Shown: piece by piece, positions 4,869-62,427 of the stretch
Layout of the letters: every line of letters begins with the position of its first letter
Position numbering within the stretch: position 1 is the first letter of the stretch
DNA from: Halobacterium litoreum
Lineage (GTDB): Archaea > Halobacteriota > Halobacteria > Halobacteriales > Halobacteriaceae
Length of the DNA: 64,000 bases
Direction: 5' to 3'
NCBI RefSeq assembly: GCF_021233415.1
Contig: NZ_CP089466.1
Span: 558,001-622,000 of the forward strand
Translations under genes and position numbers: made by a program
The notes under the pieces: model-generated
What the model was told of the DNA's origin: nothing
Databases searched by the model: none
What the model saw: the letters and a program-made list of their open reading frames with translations, nothing else

Positions 4869-5812
4869 GGCGTCGGGTGTGGGTCGCCGTGGCGCTGCCG
4901 GTGGTCGACCTGCTGGGTGAGTTCCGTCACGCGGTAGAAGACGTGTTCCGGGTCCTTGTTGAGCGCCCACAGCGCCCGCGTCTTCGCGAGCAACCAGAGT
5001 TTCCGCGTCGTGCTCAGCCCCGGCGTCTCCGTGAGCACGTCGCAGTCCCGCGCCCGAATCTCGCGGTGGTGGTCGGCGTACAGCACCGCCGACAGCAACA
5101 CCGCGAACTGGCAGTCCTCGGGGAGGTACTGGATGCCGGCGACGCCCTCGCGGTACTTCGTCTCCGTGTACGCCAACTCCGTGCGCATCGCCTCCCGGAA
5201 TCCCGCGGTCACCTCGCGGTCGCGCAACTGCTCTACGGTGACGCCGTACTCCTCGCGGGTCTCCGCCGGGAGGTAGACGCGGTCGTACTCGTGGATGTCC
5301 TCGGCGACGTCCCGGAGGAAGTTCGACAACTGGAACGCCTCTGCGAGCGCCGCCGCGTGGGGCGCCGCCGTCTCCGGGTCCTCGACCTGCATCACGTCCA
5401 TCATCATGTTCCCGACGGCGACCGCCGACCCCCGCATGTACGTCTCCAGTTCCTCGTGGGTGTCGTACCGGGTCGTCTCGAGGTCCGCCAGCATCGCGTC
5501 GACGAACGTGTTCACGTCCTCGTCGCTGATGTCGTAGCGCACCGCGAGTTCCCGGAACGCGGTCAACACCTTGTCGTCGCTCTCGCGTTCCCCCAACGCG
5601 ACCTCGCGGATGCGTTCTAACTCCTCGCGCTGGCGCTCCGGGTCGCGGTCCTCGGTCGTATCCACCACGTCGTCGGCGACGCGGAAGAACGCGTACAGCA
5701 CGTACGTCGAGTTGCGCACGCGCTTCGGCAGGAGTCTCGTCGCGAGGTGGAACGTCTTCCCCGTTCGCTGTTGTATCGTCTTACTCGTCGAAATTTGTGT
5801 CTTGTCAACCAT
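4865..5812 (-). CDS. crtB: Phytoene synthase
   Basis: This 315-residue squalene/phytoene synthase family enzyme condenses two geranylgeranyl diphosphates head-to-head to phytoene, the entry step of the carotenoid pathway completed by the convergent genes. The first Asp-rich motif appears in FFRVADDVVDTTED (about 43-56). The second appears in RDVAEDIHEYDRVYLP (about 183-198). An ORF extends upstream, but the family N-terminus (MVDKTQISTSKTIQQ) begins at the ATG ending at 5812. It converges on cruF with a 4-base 3' overlap, which leaves no room for a shared terminator. Confidence 0.95.
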   Translation of the reverse strand: MVDKTQISTSKTIQQRTGKTFHLATRLLPKRVRNSTYVLYAFFRVADDVVDTTEDRDPERQREELERIREVALGERESDDKVLTAFRELAVRYDISDEDVNTFVDAMLADLETTRYDTHEELETYMRGSAVAVGNMMMDVMQVEDPETAAPHAAALAEAFQLSNFLRDVAEDIHEYDRVYLPAETREEYGVTVEQLRDREVTAGFREAMRTELAYTETKYREGVAGIQYLPEDCQFAVLLSAVLYADHHREIRARDCDVLTETPGLSTTRKLWLLAKTRALWALNKDPEHVFYRVTELTQQVDHRQRHGDPHPTP

Positions 5813-56357: not shown

Positions 56358-57095
56358 ATGCCCAAAGAATTCGAACTCACCCGTCGCCGCGTGCTCGGCG
56401 GTATCGGCACCATCGGCGTCGCGTCCGTCGGCGCCGGCCTCGGCACGTCCGCGTACCTGAACGACACCGAATCCTTCGAGGAGAACACCATCACCGCGGG
56501 GACGCTTGACATGTCCGTCACCGCGACCGTGGAGGCGGCCAGCGACTACTGGAGCGACGCCGTCGAACTGAGCGCGACCGCGGACGGCGACCCGGTCACC
56601 TCCTTCCAGGTCGACGACGTGAAGCCCGGCGACTGGGGCATCATCTGCTTCGACATCGACATCGGCGAGAACCCCGGCTACGTGCAGGTGATGACGGAGA
56701 ACCTCGCGAGCGCGGAGAACGGCTACACCGAACCCGAACCCGTCGACGAGAACGGCGAGGGCGAACTGGAGGAGGCCATGATTGCGGAGGTCTACTCCGG
56801 TTTCGACGCGGGCGCGGACAGCGACCCGCCGCGCAGCCACCTCTCCGGGCTGGACGCCACGACCCCCGAGGGCACGACGCTCGCCGAGGCGTACGAGACG
56901 TACAGCACGGGCGTCACGCTCGGCGGCAGCGAGGAGCCGGCGGTCGTCGGCTCCGGCGAGTCGATGGCGACGTTCTGCCTCCTGCTCTGGATTCCCGCCG
57001 AGGTCGGGAACGAGATTCAGGGCGACTCCGTGGCCTTCGACCTCGTGTTCCACGCCGAACAGGTCCGCAACAACGACGACCCGTTCAGCGCCTGA
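56358..57095 (+). CDS. TasA/camelysin-like secreted protein with SipW-type signal (1)
   Basis: This 245-residue protein has LTRRRVLGGIGTIGVASVG, a hydrophobic signal with twin Arg. GTSAYLNDTESFEENTITAG and TLDMSV follow, the motif that marks TasA/CalY (peptidase M73-like) fibre proteins cleaved by SipW. A beta domain with DVKPGDWGIICFDIDIGENP comes next, ending in GNEIQGDSVAFDLVFHAEQV then RNND. It is probably a structural surface subunit. It is first in a five-gene run. Confidence 0.88.
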   Translation: MPKEFELTRRRVLGGIGTIGVASVGAGLGTSAYLNDTESFEENTITAGTLDMSVTATVEAASDYWSDAVELSATADGDPVTSFQVDDVKPGDWGIICFDIDIGENPGYVQVMTENLASAENGYTEPEPVDENGEGELEEAMIAEVYSGFDAGADSDPPRSHLSGLDATTPEGTTLAEAYETYSTGVTLGGSEEPAVVGSGESMATFCLLLWIPAEVGNEIQGDSVAFDLVFHAEQVRNNDDPFSA

Positions 57096-57130
57096 ACGGG
57101 TCGACTCGCGTCCGGGACCCGCGCCGCGGC

Positions 57131-57170
57131 GGCGGTTCGACTCCGCCGGCGAGTCTCCCCGAACGGGGGA
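57131..57170 (+). promoter_or_regulatory. Intercistronic two-hairpin element, copy 1
   Basis: Hairpin A is GGCGGTTCGACTCCGCC (57131-57147), a five-base stem with a TTCGACT loop as in a tRNA T-arm. Hairpin B is TCCCC-GAACG-GGGGA (57156-57170), six bases before the ATG at 57177. The Shine-Dalgarno-like G run is inside stem B. Confidence 0.75.
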
Positions 57171-57176
57171 CCCACC

Positions 57177-57998
57177 ATGACCGAGAAACTCGAACTCACG
57201 CGACGGAAACTGCTCGCCGGCATCGCCGGCGTCGGCGCCGCGAGCGCCGGCGCGGGACTCGGCACGAGCGCGTACCTCAACGACACCGAGTCGTTCACGG
57301 ACAACAGCATCACCGCGGGCGCGCTGAACCTCGCCGTGAGCGTGGACGTGCGCGCGAAGAGCCCCGACCTCCCCGACCCCGAGGTGGCCTCGGAGACGGG
57401 CACCGACGACACCGCCGACGGGAACGTCGTCACGATAACCGTCTCGGACCTGAAACCCGGCGACTGGTTCCTACTGGAGTGGGACGCCGAGGTGTACGGC
57501 AACCCCGGCTACGTGCAGGTCACGTCCGTCGACGAGGACTACGCGAACGCGGAGGGCGCGAACCCCGAACCGGAGACCGACACCGCGGCGCCCGGCGACC
57601 TCGGGCGCACGCTCCTCACCTCGATCTGGGCGGACTTCCAGACGCTCGGGAGCACCGACGTCCGCCAGTACCTCGTCGACCTCGACCCCACGACCGACGT
57701 CAGTTCGACCGGGCTGTCGGCCTACGAGACGCCGGACCTCGACGGCGTCACGCCGAGTGGCGCGCACTACACCACACTCGACGAAGCCCACGCCGTCTAC
57801 CAGACGGGCGTGTTGATGCGGGACGCCGGCGGCGCGCCCCTCGTCGTCGGGAACAACGGCGACTCCGGGACGTTCTACCAGTTGTTCGAACTGCCGCCCG
57901 GCGTCGGCAACGACGTGCAGGGCGACTCGGTGACGTTCTCGCTGCGCTTCGACGCCGAGCAGGTGCGGAACAACGACGCGCCGTTCGGCGGCGCGTGA
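57177..57998 (+). CDS. TasA/camelysin-like secreted protein with SipW-type signal (2)
   Basis: This 273-residue paralogue of the preceding protein has LTRRKLLAGIAGVGAASAGAG and GTSAYLNDTESFTDNSITAG, then the beta core (DLKPGDWFLLEWDAEVYGNP, GYVQVTSVDEDYANAEGANP). The conserved C-terminus is GNDVQGDSVTFSLRFDAEQV then RNND. No Cys are present, so folding does not depend on disulphides. It is preceded by element copy 1 and followed by copy 2. A second major or minor subunit of the same surface structure is the likely role. Confidence 0.88.
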   Translation: MTEKLELTRRKLLAGIAGVGAASAGAGLGTSAYLNDTESFTDNSITAGALNLAVSVDVRAKSPDLPDPEVASETGTDDTADGNVVTITVSDLKPGDWFLLEWDAEVYGNPGYVQVTSVDEDYANAEGANPEPETDTAAPGDLGRTLLTSIWADFQTLGSTDVRQYLVDLDPTTDVSSTGLSAYETPDLDGVTPSGAHYTTLDEAHAVYQTGVLMRDAGGAPLVVGNNGDSGTFYQLFELPPGVGNDVQGDSVTFSLRFDAEQVRNNDAPFGGA

Positions 57999-58030
57999 CC
58001 CCTCGACTCGACCCACGCCGGTGTGCTGGC

Positions 58031-58072
58031 GGCGGTTCGACTCCGCCGGTGGGTTTCACCCTCACGGGGTGA
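58031..58072 (+). promoter_or_regulatory. Intercistronic two-hairpin element, copy 2
   Basis: Hairpin A is identical (58031-58047). Hairpin B is TCACCC-TCACG-GGGTGA (58056-58072), seven bases before the ATG at 58080. Relative to copies 1 and 4 the second stem has an A/T pair in place of C/G, a compensated change. GGGTGA could serve as the ribosome-binding site. Confidence 0.75.
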
Positions 58073-58079
58073 CACCACG

Positions 58080-59777
58080 ATGAACGACGACTACACCACG
58101 CTCTCGCGGCGGCAGATGCTCGCCGCGCTCGGGGGCGTCGGGCTGGCCTCTGCCGGTGCGGGACTCGGCACGTCGGCCTACCTCAACGACACCGAATCGT
58201 TCGACGCGAACACCGTCACCGCGGGGCGACTCGACCTCAAGGTCGACTGGGAGGAACACTACTCGTTCCCCCAACTGTACGGGTTCGACGACCCGACCGT
58301 CGGCCTCGACGTGACGCGCACCGAACCGACCGAACCGTCGGCGTACGTCGGCCTCCCGGACCCCGAGAACCCGATGGTGTGGGTCCGCGAGGACGACCTC
58401 GCGGCGTACATGGACGCCACCGCCATCGAGTCGTTCCCGGACCCGGACGGGGACGGCGCACAGGAGATGTCCACCGAGGACTTCGAGTACGTCCCCTGCG
58501 AGGACGGCGCGGACACCGGCGTTCACTTCGACCCGTCCGTCGAGGGCGCGCTCCGCACCCGGAACGCGGGCACCTACGCCGACGGCGAAGTGAAGCCGCT
58601 CGTCTCGCTGGAGGACGTGAAACCCGGCGACTTCGGGGAGTTCACGCTGAGTTTCCACCTCTGTGACAACCCCGGCTACGTGTGGCTGCAGGCCGCGAAC
58701 GTCACCGAATCCGAGAACGGCCTCACCGAACCCGAGAGCGAGGTCGACGAGACGCCGGAGACCCCCGAACTCGCCGAGCAGATTCAGACCGCGTGGTGGT
58801 ACGATATCGACGGCAACAACGTCATCGACGAGTCGGTCGGCGAAGTCGACGTGATGATAGCCGTCGACACCTCCGGGTCGCTGTCCGACGACCAGGTCGG
58901 CGAACTCGCGGACGCCGCGAACACGCTCGCGAGCGACCTCGTGGCCGACGCGGACGCCCGCGTCGGCGGCCTGACGTTCGGCGGCGACGACGTGGGCAAC
59001 TTCACCGCGCTCGCGGACAGCCCCGTGACGTTCAGCGGTCTGTCGGCGGGCGGCAACACGCCGATGCCGGCGGCGCTCGAAATCGCCGCGGCGGAACTCG
59101 ACGCGAACGCCCGCCCCGACGCGGAGACGTTCGTCGTGTTGCTCACGGACGGCGGCCCGAACTACGCGAACAAGACGTACGCCGCGGGCGGGTTCACCGT
59201 CGGCGGCGACTACACCGGCGGCGACCCCGGCGACTCCGAAATCGACGACAGCGAGATGGACGAGACGGCCGCCATCGCGGCCGACATCCGCGAGGACCAC
59301 CACATTCTCGCGGTCGGCATCAACGACAACCGCGCACCGACCGGGCGCGAGGGCGAACCGGGCGTCCCCCTGCTGTCGACGTACCTCCGCGACCAGATTG
59401 CGGGGACGATGGCGAACTACTTCAGCACCACCGACCCCGCGGCCGTGACGAACGTCCTCGACGCGATTCTGGACGTCATCGCCACCCCCGAAGAGGTGTT
59501 CCGCCGCGGCACGCTCGCCGACGACCTCGCCGCGCTCTCCTCGGGCAACGGCATCCCGCTGGACGCCGGGCGCTCGACCGCCTTCGACGAACTCGCGGAC
59601 GCCCCCGACGACCCTGCCCGCCAGTGCTTCCAGGCGGGCGTGAACTACTTCGTCGGGTTCGCGTGGTGGCTCCCCGCGGACGTCGGGAACGAGGTGCAAA
59701 GCGACGGCGTCGGCTTCGACTTCGGGTTCTACGCCGAGCAGTGCCGGAACAACGACGGCAGCGGTCCGGCGGCCTGA
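58080..59777 (+). CDS. TasA-like secreted protein with an inserted von Willebrand A domain
   Basis: This 565-residue protein has the usual signal (GTSAYLNDTESFDANTVTAG). The first half of the TasA-like domain follows (to about 235, DVKPGDFGEFTLSFHLCDNP). A vWA domain is then inserted: MIAVDTSGSLSDDQVGELAD, the DxSxS metal site at about 260, and TFVVLLTDGGPNYANKTY. The second half of the fibre domain comes last (FVGFAWWLPADVGNEVQSDG, GFYAEQCRNND). The vWA part would bind a ligand or partner at the surface via a metal ion. Confidence 0.87.
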   Translation: MNDDYTTLSRRQMLAALGGVGLASAGAGLGTSAYLNDTESFDANTVTAGRLDLKVDWEEHYSFPQLYGFDDPTVGLDVTRTEPTEPSAYVGLPDPENPMVWVREDDLAAYMDATAIESFPDPDGDGAQEMSTEDFEYVPCEDGADTGVHFDPSVEGALRTRNAGTYADGEVKPLVSLEDVKPGDFGEFTLSFHLCDNPGYVWLQAANVTESENGLTEPESEVDETPETPELAEQIQTAWWYDIDGNNVIDESVGEVDVMIAVDTSGSLSDDQVGELADAANTLASDLVADADARVGGLTFGGDDVGNFTALADSPVTFSGLSAGGNTPMPAALEIAAAELDANARPDAETFVVLLTDGGPNYANKTYAAGGFTVGGDYTGGDPGDSEIDDSEMDETAAIAADIREDHHILAVGINDNRAPTGREGEPGVPLLSTYLRDQIAGTMANYFSTTDPAAVTNVLDAILDVIATPEEVFRRGTLADDLAALSSGNGIPLDAGRSTAFDELADAPDDPARQCFQAGVNYFVGFAWWLPADVGNEVQSDGVGFDFGFYAEQCRNNDGSGPAA

Positions 59778-59814
59778 CCGCCGCCACGCCCACCCCGGGA
59801 GCGTCGCGCTCGAC

Positions 59815-59852
59815 GGCGGTTCGACTCCGCCAGTGGGTTTCCCCCTCGGGGG
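59815..59852 (+). promoter_or_regulatory. Intercistronic two-hairpin element, copy 3
   Basis: Hairpin A is identical (59815-59831). Hairpin B is CCCC-CTCG-GGGG within CCCCCTCGGGGG (59841-59852), six bases before the ATG at 59859. It shares the GTGGGTTT linker type with copy 2. Confidence 0.75.
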
Positions 59853-59858
59853 TTCACC

Positions 59859-61661
59859 ATGAAAGACGACCAACTACACCGCCTCTCCCGACGCCGCGTG
59901 CTCGGGGGGCTCGGGGCCATCGGCCTCGCGTCCGCCGGCGCCGGCCTCGGGACGAGCGCGTTCCTCAACGACCGCGAATCGTTCGAAGACGCCGTCCTCA
60001 CCGCGGGCACCCTCGACCTGCTCGTTGACTACCACTCCTACTGGGACCAGGGCCGGGCCGGCTCCGGCCAGGTCACCGGGACGAAAGACGGGAGCGGCAC
60101 CGTCAGCGGCACGCTCACCGACGTGAAGCCCGGAGACAGCGGCCTGCTCGCGTTCTGTCCGCGCATCGTTGACAACCCCGCGTACCTCTGGCTCTGTGGC
60201 GAACTCACGTCGAACGACGAGAACGGCCAGACCGAACCCGAGGCGAACCACTCCGACGACGACACCGGCGGCGACCCCGGCGCCGGGATGGGCGAACTCG
60301 CCGACAGCGTCGTCGTCGACGTGGACTACTGCACGGTCGACGTCGCGGCGTCCGCGCCCGAAGACGAGTTCGGCCCCGGCGACGTGTCGAAAGTCGCCGA
60401 CGTGTGGGAGGGCACCCTCGCCGACTTCCTCGCCGCGATTCAAAACGGCGTCCCCCTCGACGGCGACGCGAACACCGGCGACGGCGCCTTCCTCGCGCCC
60501 GGCGAACAGGCGTGTTTCGCGGGCGGCGCGGAGGCGGACAACTACTGCCTCTGCATCGACTGGGAGGTCCCGGTCTCCGTCGGCAACGAGATTCAAAGCG
60601 ACTCGCTTTCCTTCGACCTGGAGTTCCACGCCGAGCAGTGCCGGAACAACGACGGCACCCGGAACCCCTGCGCGGACGACGCCGGCCCCGACTGCGACCC
60701 CTGCGAACTCCCCGGCGACGTCGCCGACTCAGAACTCGTCTCCGTCAACAGCGTGGACGCCGCCTCGTTCCCCGACGTGTCGCTGTTCGTCCGCGTGGAC
60801 ACGCCCGCCGGGAACGCCGGCGACCTCACCGCCGGCGACTTCGAGGTCTGCGAGAACGGCCTCGCGCAGTCCGAGTCCGTCTCGTTCACCTCCGGGTCGC
60901 TCGCGGACGTGGTGTTCGTGTTCGACGACACCGGGAGCATGGGCGAGGAAATCGCGGGCGCGCAGGCCGCCATCACGAACTTCGTGGACGCGCTCACGAA
61001 CGACGCCGGCATCGACTCGCGGTTCGCGCTCGTCTCCTACAAGGACACCGTCGAACTCGACCAGGACTTCACCGACGACCAGGCCACCATCGAGGCCGCC
61101 ATCGACGACCTCTCCGCGAGCGGCGGGAGCGACGGCCGCGAGGACAACTTCGACGCGCTCGGCGTCGCCACCCGCGACATCGCCGCGGACTCCGGCGGGA
61201 TGCTGTCGGCGTACCGCCCGGGCGCCCAGAAGGTCGTCATCGACATCACCGACGCGCCGGCGCAGGTCGACGACCCGGACGCCTACGACAACGACGAGTC
61301 CCGCACCGACTACGTGATGTCCGAGGTCGCAACGCTCCTCGACGGGTTCACGTACATCGCCGTCTCCGAGGACCTCTCGGAGTCCAGTTTCTTCGACGAC
61401 CCCGGCTACGCGGACGGCGACAAGGAAGTGCTCGCCGACATGGTCGACGGGTCGTGGTTCGAACTCCCGGAGTCCGACGCCGACGAGTTCTCCGACCTGC
61501 TCACCGACGAGGTGGCGGGCCTGCTGTCCACCACGTACACCGTCTCGTACACGTCCTGTGACGCCGACGCCGACCCGGCCGAGCGCCCGATACTGCTCGC
61601 CGTCGACGACCCCGACGAGGGGACGCTGTACCGCAACGCCTCGCTGACGGTGCCGACGTAA
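59859..61661 (+). CDS. TasA-like secreted protein with a C-terminal von Willebrand A domain
   Basis: This 600-residue protein has signal LSRRRVLGGLGAIGLASAG and GTSAFLNDRESFEDAVLTAG, then a complete fibre-type domain ending GNEIQSDSLSFDLEFHAEQC and RNND at about 268. A Cys-rich hinge (CADDAGPDCDPCELPG) is followed by a vWA domain (VVFVFDDTGSMGEEIAGAQA, metal site DDTGS about 355) to the end. It is a probable adhesin-like subunit, with the vWA domain appended rather than inserted as in the previous gene. It is rich in Cys, unlike the first two paralogues. Confidence 0.87.
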   Translation: MKDDQLHRLSRRRVLGGLGAIGLASAGAGLGTSAFLNDRESFEDAVLTAGTLDLLVDYHSYWDQGRAGSGQVTGTKDGSGTVSGTLTDVKPGDSGLLAFCPRIVDNPAYLWLCGELTSNDENGQTEPEANHSDDDTGGDPGAGMGELADSVVVDVDYCTVDVAASAPEDEFGPGDVSKVADVWEGTLADFLAAIQNGVPLDGDANTGDGAFLAPGEQACFAGGAEADNYCLCIDWEVPVSVGNEIQSDSLSFDLEFHAEQCRNNDGTRNPCADDAGPDCDPCELPGDVADSELVSVNSVDAASFPDVSLFVRVDTPAGNAGDLTAGDFEVCENGLAQSESVSFTSGSLADVVFVFDDTGSMGEEIAGAQAAITNFVDALTNDAGIDSRFALVSYKDTVELDQDFTDDQATIEAAIDDLSASGGSDGREDNFDALGVATRDIAADSGGMLSAYRPGAQKVVIDITDAPAQVDDPDAYDNDESRTDYVMSEVATLLDGFTYIAVSEDLSESSFFDDPGYADGDKEVLADMVDGSWFELPESDADEFSDLLTDEVAGLLSTTYTVSYTSCDADADPAERPILLAVDDPDEGTLYRNASLTVPT

Positions 61662-61691
61662 CCATCTCCGACTCGCGCCCGGTGGCCCACC

Positions 61692-61729
61692 GGCGGTTCG
61701 ACTCCGCCGGCGAGTCCTCCCCACGGGGA
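61692..61729 (+). promoter_or_regulatory. Intercistronic two-hairpin element, copy 4
   Basis: Hairpin A is identical (61692-61708). Hairpin B is TCCCC-AC-GGGGGA-like: TCCC pairs with GGGA around CACG (61718-61729), five bases before the ATG at 61735. It shares the GGCGAGTC linker type with copy 1. Confidence 0.7.
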
Positions 61730-61734
61730 ACACC

Positions 61735-62427
61735 ATGACTCCACCAATCGACGTGACGCGCCGCCGCCTGCTCGCCAGCGTCGCCGCCACGGGCGCGGCG
61801 TCGTTCGCGGGCGTCGGCGCGCTCTCCGAGGACGCCGTCGCGTACACGGACGCCGCGACGGTCGGCGACGGCCCCGCGGTCCGCGTGGACTGGCGGGAGA
61901 CGTACAACGGCGCGGTGGTCGACGACGGCGCCGCCGGCGACGGGCCGGTCCTCGACGTCGGGAACGCCCAGCCCGGCGACAGCGGCGCGCTCGCGTTCCG
62001 GGTCGCGGGCGACGGCACCGACCCGGTGCGGGTGGCGTTCTCGCTCGCGCTCACCGCGAACGAGGAAAACGGACGCATCGAACCCGAGCGCGAGGCCGGC
62101 GACGACACGCCGACGGGCGAACTCGCGGACGCCCTCGAAATCGCGGCGTGGTACGACACCGGCGCGTTCGGCGTCTCCCGACTCGGCGGCTGCGACGGCG
62201 AGCGCGGCGTCGGCGAGACGACACTCGTCGACGGCACGCTCCGGGACGCGGACGCGGCGCTCGCGGACGGCGTGCGCCTCGGCGGCGACTGCCTCGGCTC
62301 CGACCAGCAGGTCTGCGTCGGGCTGTCGTGGTCGCTCCCCGCGTCCGTCGGCAGCCGAATCCAGACCGACAGCGTCGAGACCGACCTGGCGTTCGCCGTC
62401 GAGGCCTGCGGAGGCGACTCGTCGTGA
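61735..62427 (+). CDS. Diverged TasA-like secreted protein
   Basis: This 230-residue protein has signal VTRRRLLASVAATGAASFAG. The fibre motif is diverged (SEDAVAYTDAATVGDGPAVR, with no full NDTES...TAG box). The beta core keeps VGNAQPGDSGALAFRVAGDG and EENGRIEPEREAGDDTPTGE. It ends VGSRIQTDSVETDLAFAVEA then CGGD, the worn form of the family tail. It may be a capping or accessory subunit. It is last in the run that is linked by the hairpin elements. Confidence 0.82.
   Translation: MTPPIDVTRRRLLASVAATGAASFAGVGALSEDAVAYTDAATVGDGPAVRVDWRETYNGAVVDDGAAGDGPVLDVGNAQPGDSGALAFRVAGDGTDPVRVAFSLALTANEENGRIEPEREAGDDTPTGELADALEIAAWYDTGAFGVSRLGGCDGERGVGETTLVDGTLRDADAALADGVRLGGDCLGSDQQVCVGLSWSLPASVGSRIQTDSVETDLAFAVEACGGDSS

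Follow-up and report, generated by a model that had tools for sequence, protein, structure and literature searches.

Minimal tRNA-like elements between the genes of haloarchaeal secreted-protein operons and in phages, with a possible role in mRNA processing

Polycistronic RNAs of mitochondria provide the textbook model of tRNA punctuation, and a tRNA-like processing signal before the 5S rRNA of haloarchaea is likewise already known, a t-element at this position having reportedly been described by Hoelzle et al. in 2008 (in RNA) and 2012 (in Biochimie). In tRNAs, the acceptor stem and T-arm form a stack of 12–13 bp. Both RNase P and RNase Z use this stack as a ruler, starting from the elbow (PMC4919913, PMC4810234), and t-elements, as set out in PMC4326828 and PMC4946936, are paired RNase P/tRNase Z cut sites in vivo. 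For haloarchaea, PMC3296008 states that Haloferax tRNase Z generates the 5′ end of 5S rRNA at a tRNA-like structure, and the haloarchaeal t-element is also covered in PMC7714728. Two further relatives are the minihelices used as model substrates of RNase P and tRNase Z, and the tRNA-like structures of mRNAs and long non-coding RNAs that are cut by RNase P (for example, mascRNA; PMC4810234).

Here we describe a structured and widespread RNA element that lies between protein-coding genes of Halobacterium litoreum and other haloarchaea, and that resembles each of these systems in part. As in mitochondria, the spacers between genes are tRNA-shaped and cutting by tRNA-end enzymes is to be expected, whereas the present spacers are not tRNAs (that is, they have neither D arm nor anticodon arm). 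With the minihelix substrates the element shares a 12–13-bp stack ending in a T-loop, but it is natural and widespread, and its 5′ strand is joined through a loop with a conserved GG. As in mascRNA-type structures, tRNA mimicry would make RNA ends, although those structures mimic more of the cloverleaf and Rfam, the home of such families, contains no match here.

Architecture of the intercistronic elements

The window (that is, the whole 64,000-nt stretch analysed, positions 558,001–622,000 of the forward strand of contig NZ_CP089466.1) carries an operon for SipW-dependent-type and related secreted proteins. An initial annotation of this DNA had pointed to four unchanged copies of a 17-mer, each 43–49 bases before an ATG, and these positions are confirmed: GGCGGTTCGACTCCGCC starts at 57131, 58031, 59815 and 61692, precedes the ATGs at 57177, 58080, 59859 and 61735 by 43–49 nt, and has no other exact occurrence in the window. 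The 17-mer is identical to the T-arm of tRNA-Val at 15 of 17 positions on our recount (previously given as 14). In every copy, a 7-bp outer stem absent from that annotation (P1) closes over the T-arm hairpin, giving the following features (window coordinates).

56358..57095, +, gene 1, SipW-dependent-type secreted protein, operon-first
57103..57155, +, tRNA-like element copy 1 (P1 57103-57109/57149-57155; T-arm 57131-57147, extra pair 57130-57148)
57156..57176, +, copy 1 second hairpin and gene 2 leader (P4 57157-57160/57165-57168)
57177..57998, +, gene 2, SipW-dependent-type secreted protein
58010..58055, +, tRNA-like element copy 2 (P1 58010-58016/58049-58055; inner hairpin 58017-58030; T-arm 58031-58047, extra pair 58030-58048)
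58056..58079, +, copy 2 second hairpin and gene 3 leader (TCACCC/GGGTGA 58056-58061/58067-58072)
58080..59777, +, gene 3, SipW-dependent-type secreted protein with VWA domain
59787..59839, +, tRNA-like element copy 3 (P1 59787-59793/59833-59839, 6/7 pairs; T-arm 59815-59831)
59840..59858, +, copy 3 second hairpin and gene 4 leader (59841-59844/59849-59852)
59859..61661, +, gene 4, SipW-dependent-type secreted protein with VWA domain
61670..61716, +, tRNA-like element copy 4 (P1 61670-61676/61710-61716; T-arm 61692-61708, extra pair 61691-61709)
61717..61734, +, copy 4 second hairpin and gene 5 leader (61719-61722/61725-61728)
61735..62427, +, gene 5, related secreted protein, below family thresholds

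Upstream of gene 1, a GGCCC/GGGCC hairpin precedes the ATG without a tRNA-like element. A match to the Rfam guanidine-II aptamer inside the coding sequence of gene 3 (58385-58440; 25.6 bits, cut-off 32) is probably due to chance.

In the window copies, the 5′ 7-mer of P1 ends 14–21 nt before the T-arm and the 3′ strand follows directly after it. P1 reads GACTCGC/GCGAGTC in copies 1 and 4, GACCCAC/GTGGGTT in copy 2 and CGCCCAC/GTGGGTT (6/7 pairs) in copy 3, and GACCCAC/GTGGGTC and CGCCCAC/GTGGGTC in a second operon of the same genome; where the two stem types differ, the changes compensate each other. The T-stem is lengthened to 6 bp by one more pair in three of the four window copies (copy 3 has a C-A mismatch), and most copies overall have this 6-bp stem, the base before the T-arm pairing with the base after it, so that T-stem and P1 together amount to a stack of 12–13 bp. 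Among 150 copies, the T-loop reads TTCGACT 117 times and TTCGATT 29 times. A YGG lies just 3′ of the 5′ strand of P1, and in 143 of 147 copies a GG follows P1 at a distance of a few bases at most (73 in shuffled sequence), a count that has to be read together with the training of the covariance model R2 on copies that carried GG, for which reason the unbiased test is the phage set discussed below, in which YGG stood outside the search patterns. Between the GG and the T-arm lie about 4–50 variable bases, frequently with a hairpin. In the six copies of this genome, 9–30 nt separate P1 from the T-arm, and the D and anticodon arms are missing.

Folding of single sequences did not single out this structure (z-scores −1.4 to +0.3), and P1 of copy 3 neither forms alone nor appears in the single-sequence minimum-energy fold. 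As single-sequence folding is thus uninformative, the argument rests on comparison.

Known classes of element do not account for the four spacers. Rfam 15 gave nothing above the gathering threshold, the only related match being tRNA-Sec (18.7 bits, E 6.4) overlapping copy 4, and ARAGORN called no tRNA at the elements, which, together with the lack of D arm, anticodon arm and cloverleaf, excludes a tRNA gene or pseudogene. A transcription terminator can be set aside (no U-run and no A/T run of at least 5 in the four spacers), as can a haloarchaeal promoter: the spacers are 72–79% GC and have no AT-rich TATA box. A separate promoter inside each element, which had been named as an observation that would speak against an RNA device, would therefore lack an A/T run of at least 5 usable as a TATA box.

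Covariation, distribution and the 5S rRNA leader

The first covariance model, R1, covered the T-arm and the 3′ part only, because MAFFT failed to align the 5′ strand of P1 with its long inserts, and P1 was sought afterwards in the R1 matches. Seven contiguous P1 pairs were found in 30 of 54 matches, compared with 11 (maximum 18) when the upstream sequence was shuffled; the P1 register was picked by best match and kinship was uncorrected, so that the shuffles are indicative only, and a sliding control and independent sets agree with them. Among 26 copies with short linkers, both partners vary at 10 of 13 pairs, and pairing holds in 95.9% of cells as opposed to 34–53% in slid controls. Compensated variation, as proposed in the initial annotation, is supported, and homologous loci covary. 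Four R1 matches (L107, L108, L110 and L111) seem to be fortuitous or coding matches.

A second model, R2, comprises P1 plus T-arm and had intercistronic copies as its sole training set. The 2.7-Mb genome holds five exact copies of the 17-mer (the four in the window and one at 797701 on the minus strand), and the second SipW-dependent-type operon contains this fifth exact copy and one with a single mismatch (796481); all other near-matches belong to tRNA T-arms or to scattered unrelated sites. Strong whole-genome model matches fall only in the two operons, which excludes the random genome-wide scatter that had been considered as a counter-indication. Of 392 haloarchaeal genomes, 115 are R2-positive at E ≤ 1e-4, and these represent 40 of the 95 genera; every positive genome in a sample of the phylum (E ≤ 1e-4) belongs to the same order.

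Across 87 loci, R2 found 187 copies at E ≤ 0.02. In haloarchaeal genomes, the elements lie nearly always between co-directional genes, mostly for SipW/TasA-like proteins, the setting in which a search of this kind had been proposed. Among the best 150 of the 187 copies, a gene end lies upstream in 144 (median 32 nt before the element) and a start codon downstream in 140 (median 23 nt after P1); by motif count, 108 downstream products of these 150 copies look SipW/TasA-like and 15 belong to a GAFTSV family. Internal genes of the SipW family have an element in 105 cases and lack it in 27, compared with 13 and 45 for operon-first genes (odds ratio 13.5, p = 1e-13, kinship uncorrected), and the element thus tracks intercistronic position and not the protein family. 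The GAFTSV proteins form a second secreted family behind elements (MKRRNVLAALG...GAFTSV; L086:9138-9206, L160, L165 and L175); one N-terminus tested resembles the NCBIfam fimbrial proteins TafE/TafA/TafC, with the TafE/TafA matches below cut-offs, and a literature search for work on haloarchaeal fimbrial proteins returned none.

The same model also matches the 5S leader of this genome (E = 3.5e-6), which reads CCGAC GTCGGCGTA CAACGG TTCGATT CCGTTG GTCGG TAT and ends at the 5′ end of 5S rRNA. In 30 haloarchaeal 5S loci, R2 finds most of the leaders, always abutting the 5S 5′ end, and this set shows covariation of its own. One covariance model therefore finds both forms in the same genome, with P1, GG, 6-bp T-stem and TTCGAYT loop in common, but the 5S leader stands before an rRNA, whereas the present element stands between protein genes in many copies per operon, with a second hairpin and then a start codon behind it, its processing being predicted. 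Every t-element feature examined in these sequences (acceptor-like stem on a T-arm, architecture of the 5S leader) is found in the intercistronic element, with cleavage as its predicted consequence.

Proposed processing of the operon transcript

On the basis of structure, covariation, intercistronic position and the identity of shape with the 5S leader, we consider it fairly likely that the element acts as an intercistronic t-element at which tRNase Z (and/or RNase P) would cut the polycistronic mRNA into single-gene mRNAs; cleavage, enzyme, cut position and fate of the fragments are what we infer. The T-stem and P1 would stack into a 12–13-bp helix resembling the acceptor/T-arm arm of tRNA, and the T-loop, probably docked by the GG after P1 (by analogy with tRNA), would imitate the elbow. 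Alignment with the 5S leader places the predicted tRNase Z cut just after the 3′ strand of P1, where the second hairpin follows at once (that is, at about 57155/57156, 58055/58056, 59839/59840 and 61716/61717), and RNase P may act on the opposite side, at the P1 5′ end. The downstream mRNA would then start with the P4 hairpin, shielding it from a 5′–3′ exonuclease of the aRNase J type, and the 3′ end of the upstream mRNA would be either a compact tRNA-like fold or a trimmed terminus. Of 105 second-hairpin leaders, 95 fold better than the mean of their own shuffles. The genome encodes RNase Z and also an enzyme of the RNase J type; for H. volcanii, PMC10470531 describes an aRNase J complex. This model predicts exact RNA ends at the borders of the element. 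We count against it that about one-fifth of internal SipW-family genes carry no recognizable element and some first genes do, and that the stretch preceding the T-arm is of very uneven length, reaching about 50 nt.

The second hairpin (UUCCCC/GGGGA type), which had been described after each 17-mer and which we find between P1 and the ATG in all four window copies, is a module separate from the tRNA mimic. It could instead point to translation control, in which the structures would set the initiation rate of each internal cistron without cleavage and the G-rich 3′ arm of P4 would be a Shine-Dalgarno-like site that is partly masked: in each window copy the hairpin ends about 6–8 nt before the ATG, and start codons lie close behind P1 (at the median given above). 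We regard this as unlikely, as several copies (loci L090 and L101) lack the second hairpin yet retain the tRNA-like part, phage elements stay near the upstream stop codon, and the conserved acceptor/T-arm shape and the identity with the 5S leader, an element with no start codon behind it, would be left unexplained.

Recognition by a T-arm modification enzyme (Pus10 or TruB-like), or by another tRNA-binding protein that regulates the operon, had also been suggested. TruB binds a T-arm minihelix (PMC4810234) and the T-arm identity would fit this, but for such binding the T-arm alone would suffice, whereas the conserved pairing of P1, the helix length and the intercistronic position demand more; we therefore judge regulation of this kind very improbable, with nothing favouring Pus10 or TruB in particular and the tRNase Z/RNase P substrate before 5S rRNA fitting better. 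Binding or modification by a T-arm enzyme may occur as a side effect. What stands of the initial annotation is an RNA-level T-arm element between cistrons, plausibly serving RNA processing; its picture of two hairpins gives way to an acceptor-plus-T-arm mimic of tRNA with a GG after P1.

If this processing takes place, a mimic that is not a tRNA would offer protein operons a general route to separate mRNA stability and dosage under one promoter, which would be useful for fibre subunits needed in unequal amounts.

Elements in phages and lactic acid bacteria

A scan of 257 Gb of genomes with the pattern CCCAC...GGTTCGAYTCCNNNNGTGGG returned matches in haloarchaea, in Lactobacillales and in a phage contig binned as a planctomycete. 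In IMG/VR, 33 stretches carry the CCCAC pattern and 41 a CCCGC/GCGGG pattern, compared with none when P1 was broken and one when the loop was scrambled. YGG lies outside both patterns; among their distinct matches, 26 of 32 and 25 of 34 contain it, where 8 and 10 would be expected. Among Lactobacillaceae, 12 of 201 genomes are R2-positive (E ≤ 1e-3), and in Pediococcus, Lapidilactobacillus and prophages the element lies mostly 4–15 nt past a stop codon, with stems that differ but stay paired. An attachment site of the lactobacillus prophages is excluded by the paired P1, by several copies per operon (L355, L356 and L364) and by many copies per phage genome. When one bacterial copy was compared with phage records by BLAST, most matches were tRNA genes; the others were elements of mycobacteriophage Fowlmouth, in which about 9 of the 12 larger intergenic gaps between small hypothetical genes contain the element, in most cases with a hairpin and a ribosome-binding site behind it, and without annotation in the record. 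Ten mycobacteriophage copies have 95% of cells paired and a covariation score of 0.82 (0.17 when shuffled).

These sets also bear on two further explanations. The elements might be leftovers of tandem gene duplication, or a repeat at the DNA level, with no function as RNA, since the flanking genes are paralogues whose upstream regions may be copies. We find this scarcely credible and reject it: the flanks have diverged while double compensatory changes kept the pairing, a covariation that strongly disfavours it, phage elements repeat the shape with different stem sequences, and the control patterns yielded 0 and 1 stretches against 33 and 41. Alternatively, the tRNA-like fold might act as a passive barrier that blocks 3′–5′ decay, or mark the end made by another nuclease, while remaining uncut by tRNA enzymes, and the short distance to the stop codon in bacteria and phages, with a haloarchaeal median of 32 nt, would suit it. 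Any stable hairpin would serve this purpose, yet the T-loop is near-invariant (TTCGAYT in 146 of 150 copies) and the helix length fits tRNA enzymes, and we regard such a barrier as improbable.

Taking all sets together, we lean slightly towards the broader proposal that minimal tRNA mimics form an uncatalogued cross-domain class that punctuates the polycistronic mRNAs of haloarchaea, some Lactobacillaceae and many phages, in which universal tRNA-end enzymes of the host would cut operons into messages for single genes and, in haloarchaea and some phages, a hairpin would protect the new 5′ end. The presence of elements in operons of mycobacteriophages and lactobacillus prophages suggests that phages exploit the tRNA-end enzymes of their hosts likewise, and convergence of the archaeal and bacterial forms on a shape read by these enzymes is the simpler view. 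The literature searched contained no prior account of the intercistronic or phage forms. As far as this literature and Rfam show, the intercistronic use and the second hairpin are undescribed, as are the forms in bacteria and phages; the haloarchaeal part may overlap with the t-elements reportedly treated by Hoelzle in 2012.

Several smaller observations concern individual loci. In Pediococcus stilesii and Lapidilactobacillus (L226, L355 and L356), several elements lie between neighbouring accessory genes, one possibly of restriction type. The Fowlmouth stretch L414 (MH834613.1, 33000-42500) contains a longer unannotated tRNA-like form in its gap at 4933-5134, with P1 (GCTCTG/CAGAGC) around more than 100 nt including the T-arm. 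Five viral contigs, probably from haloviruses (L371, L379, L380, L383 and L393), carry copies of the haloarchaeal type (TCGGAG linker) that begin at a stop codon or no more than about 1 nt from it.
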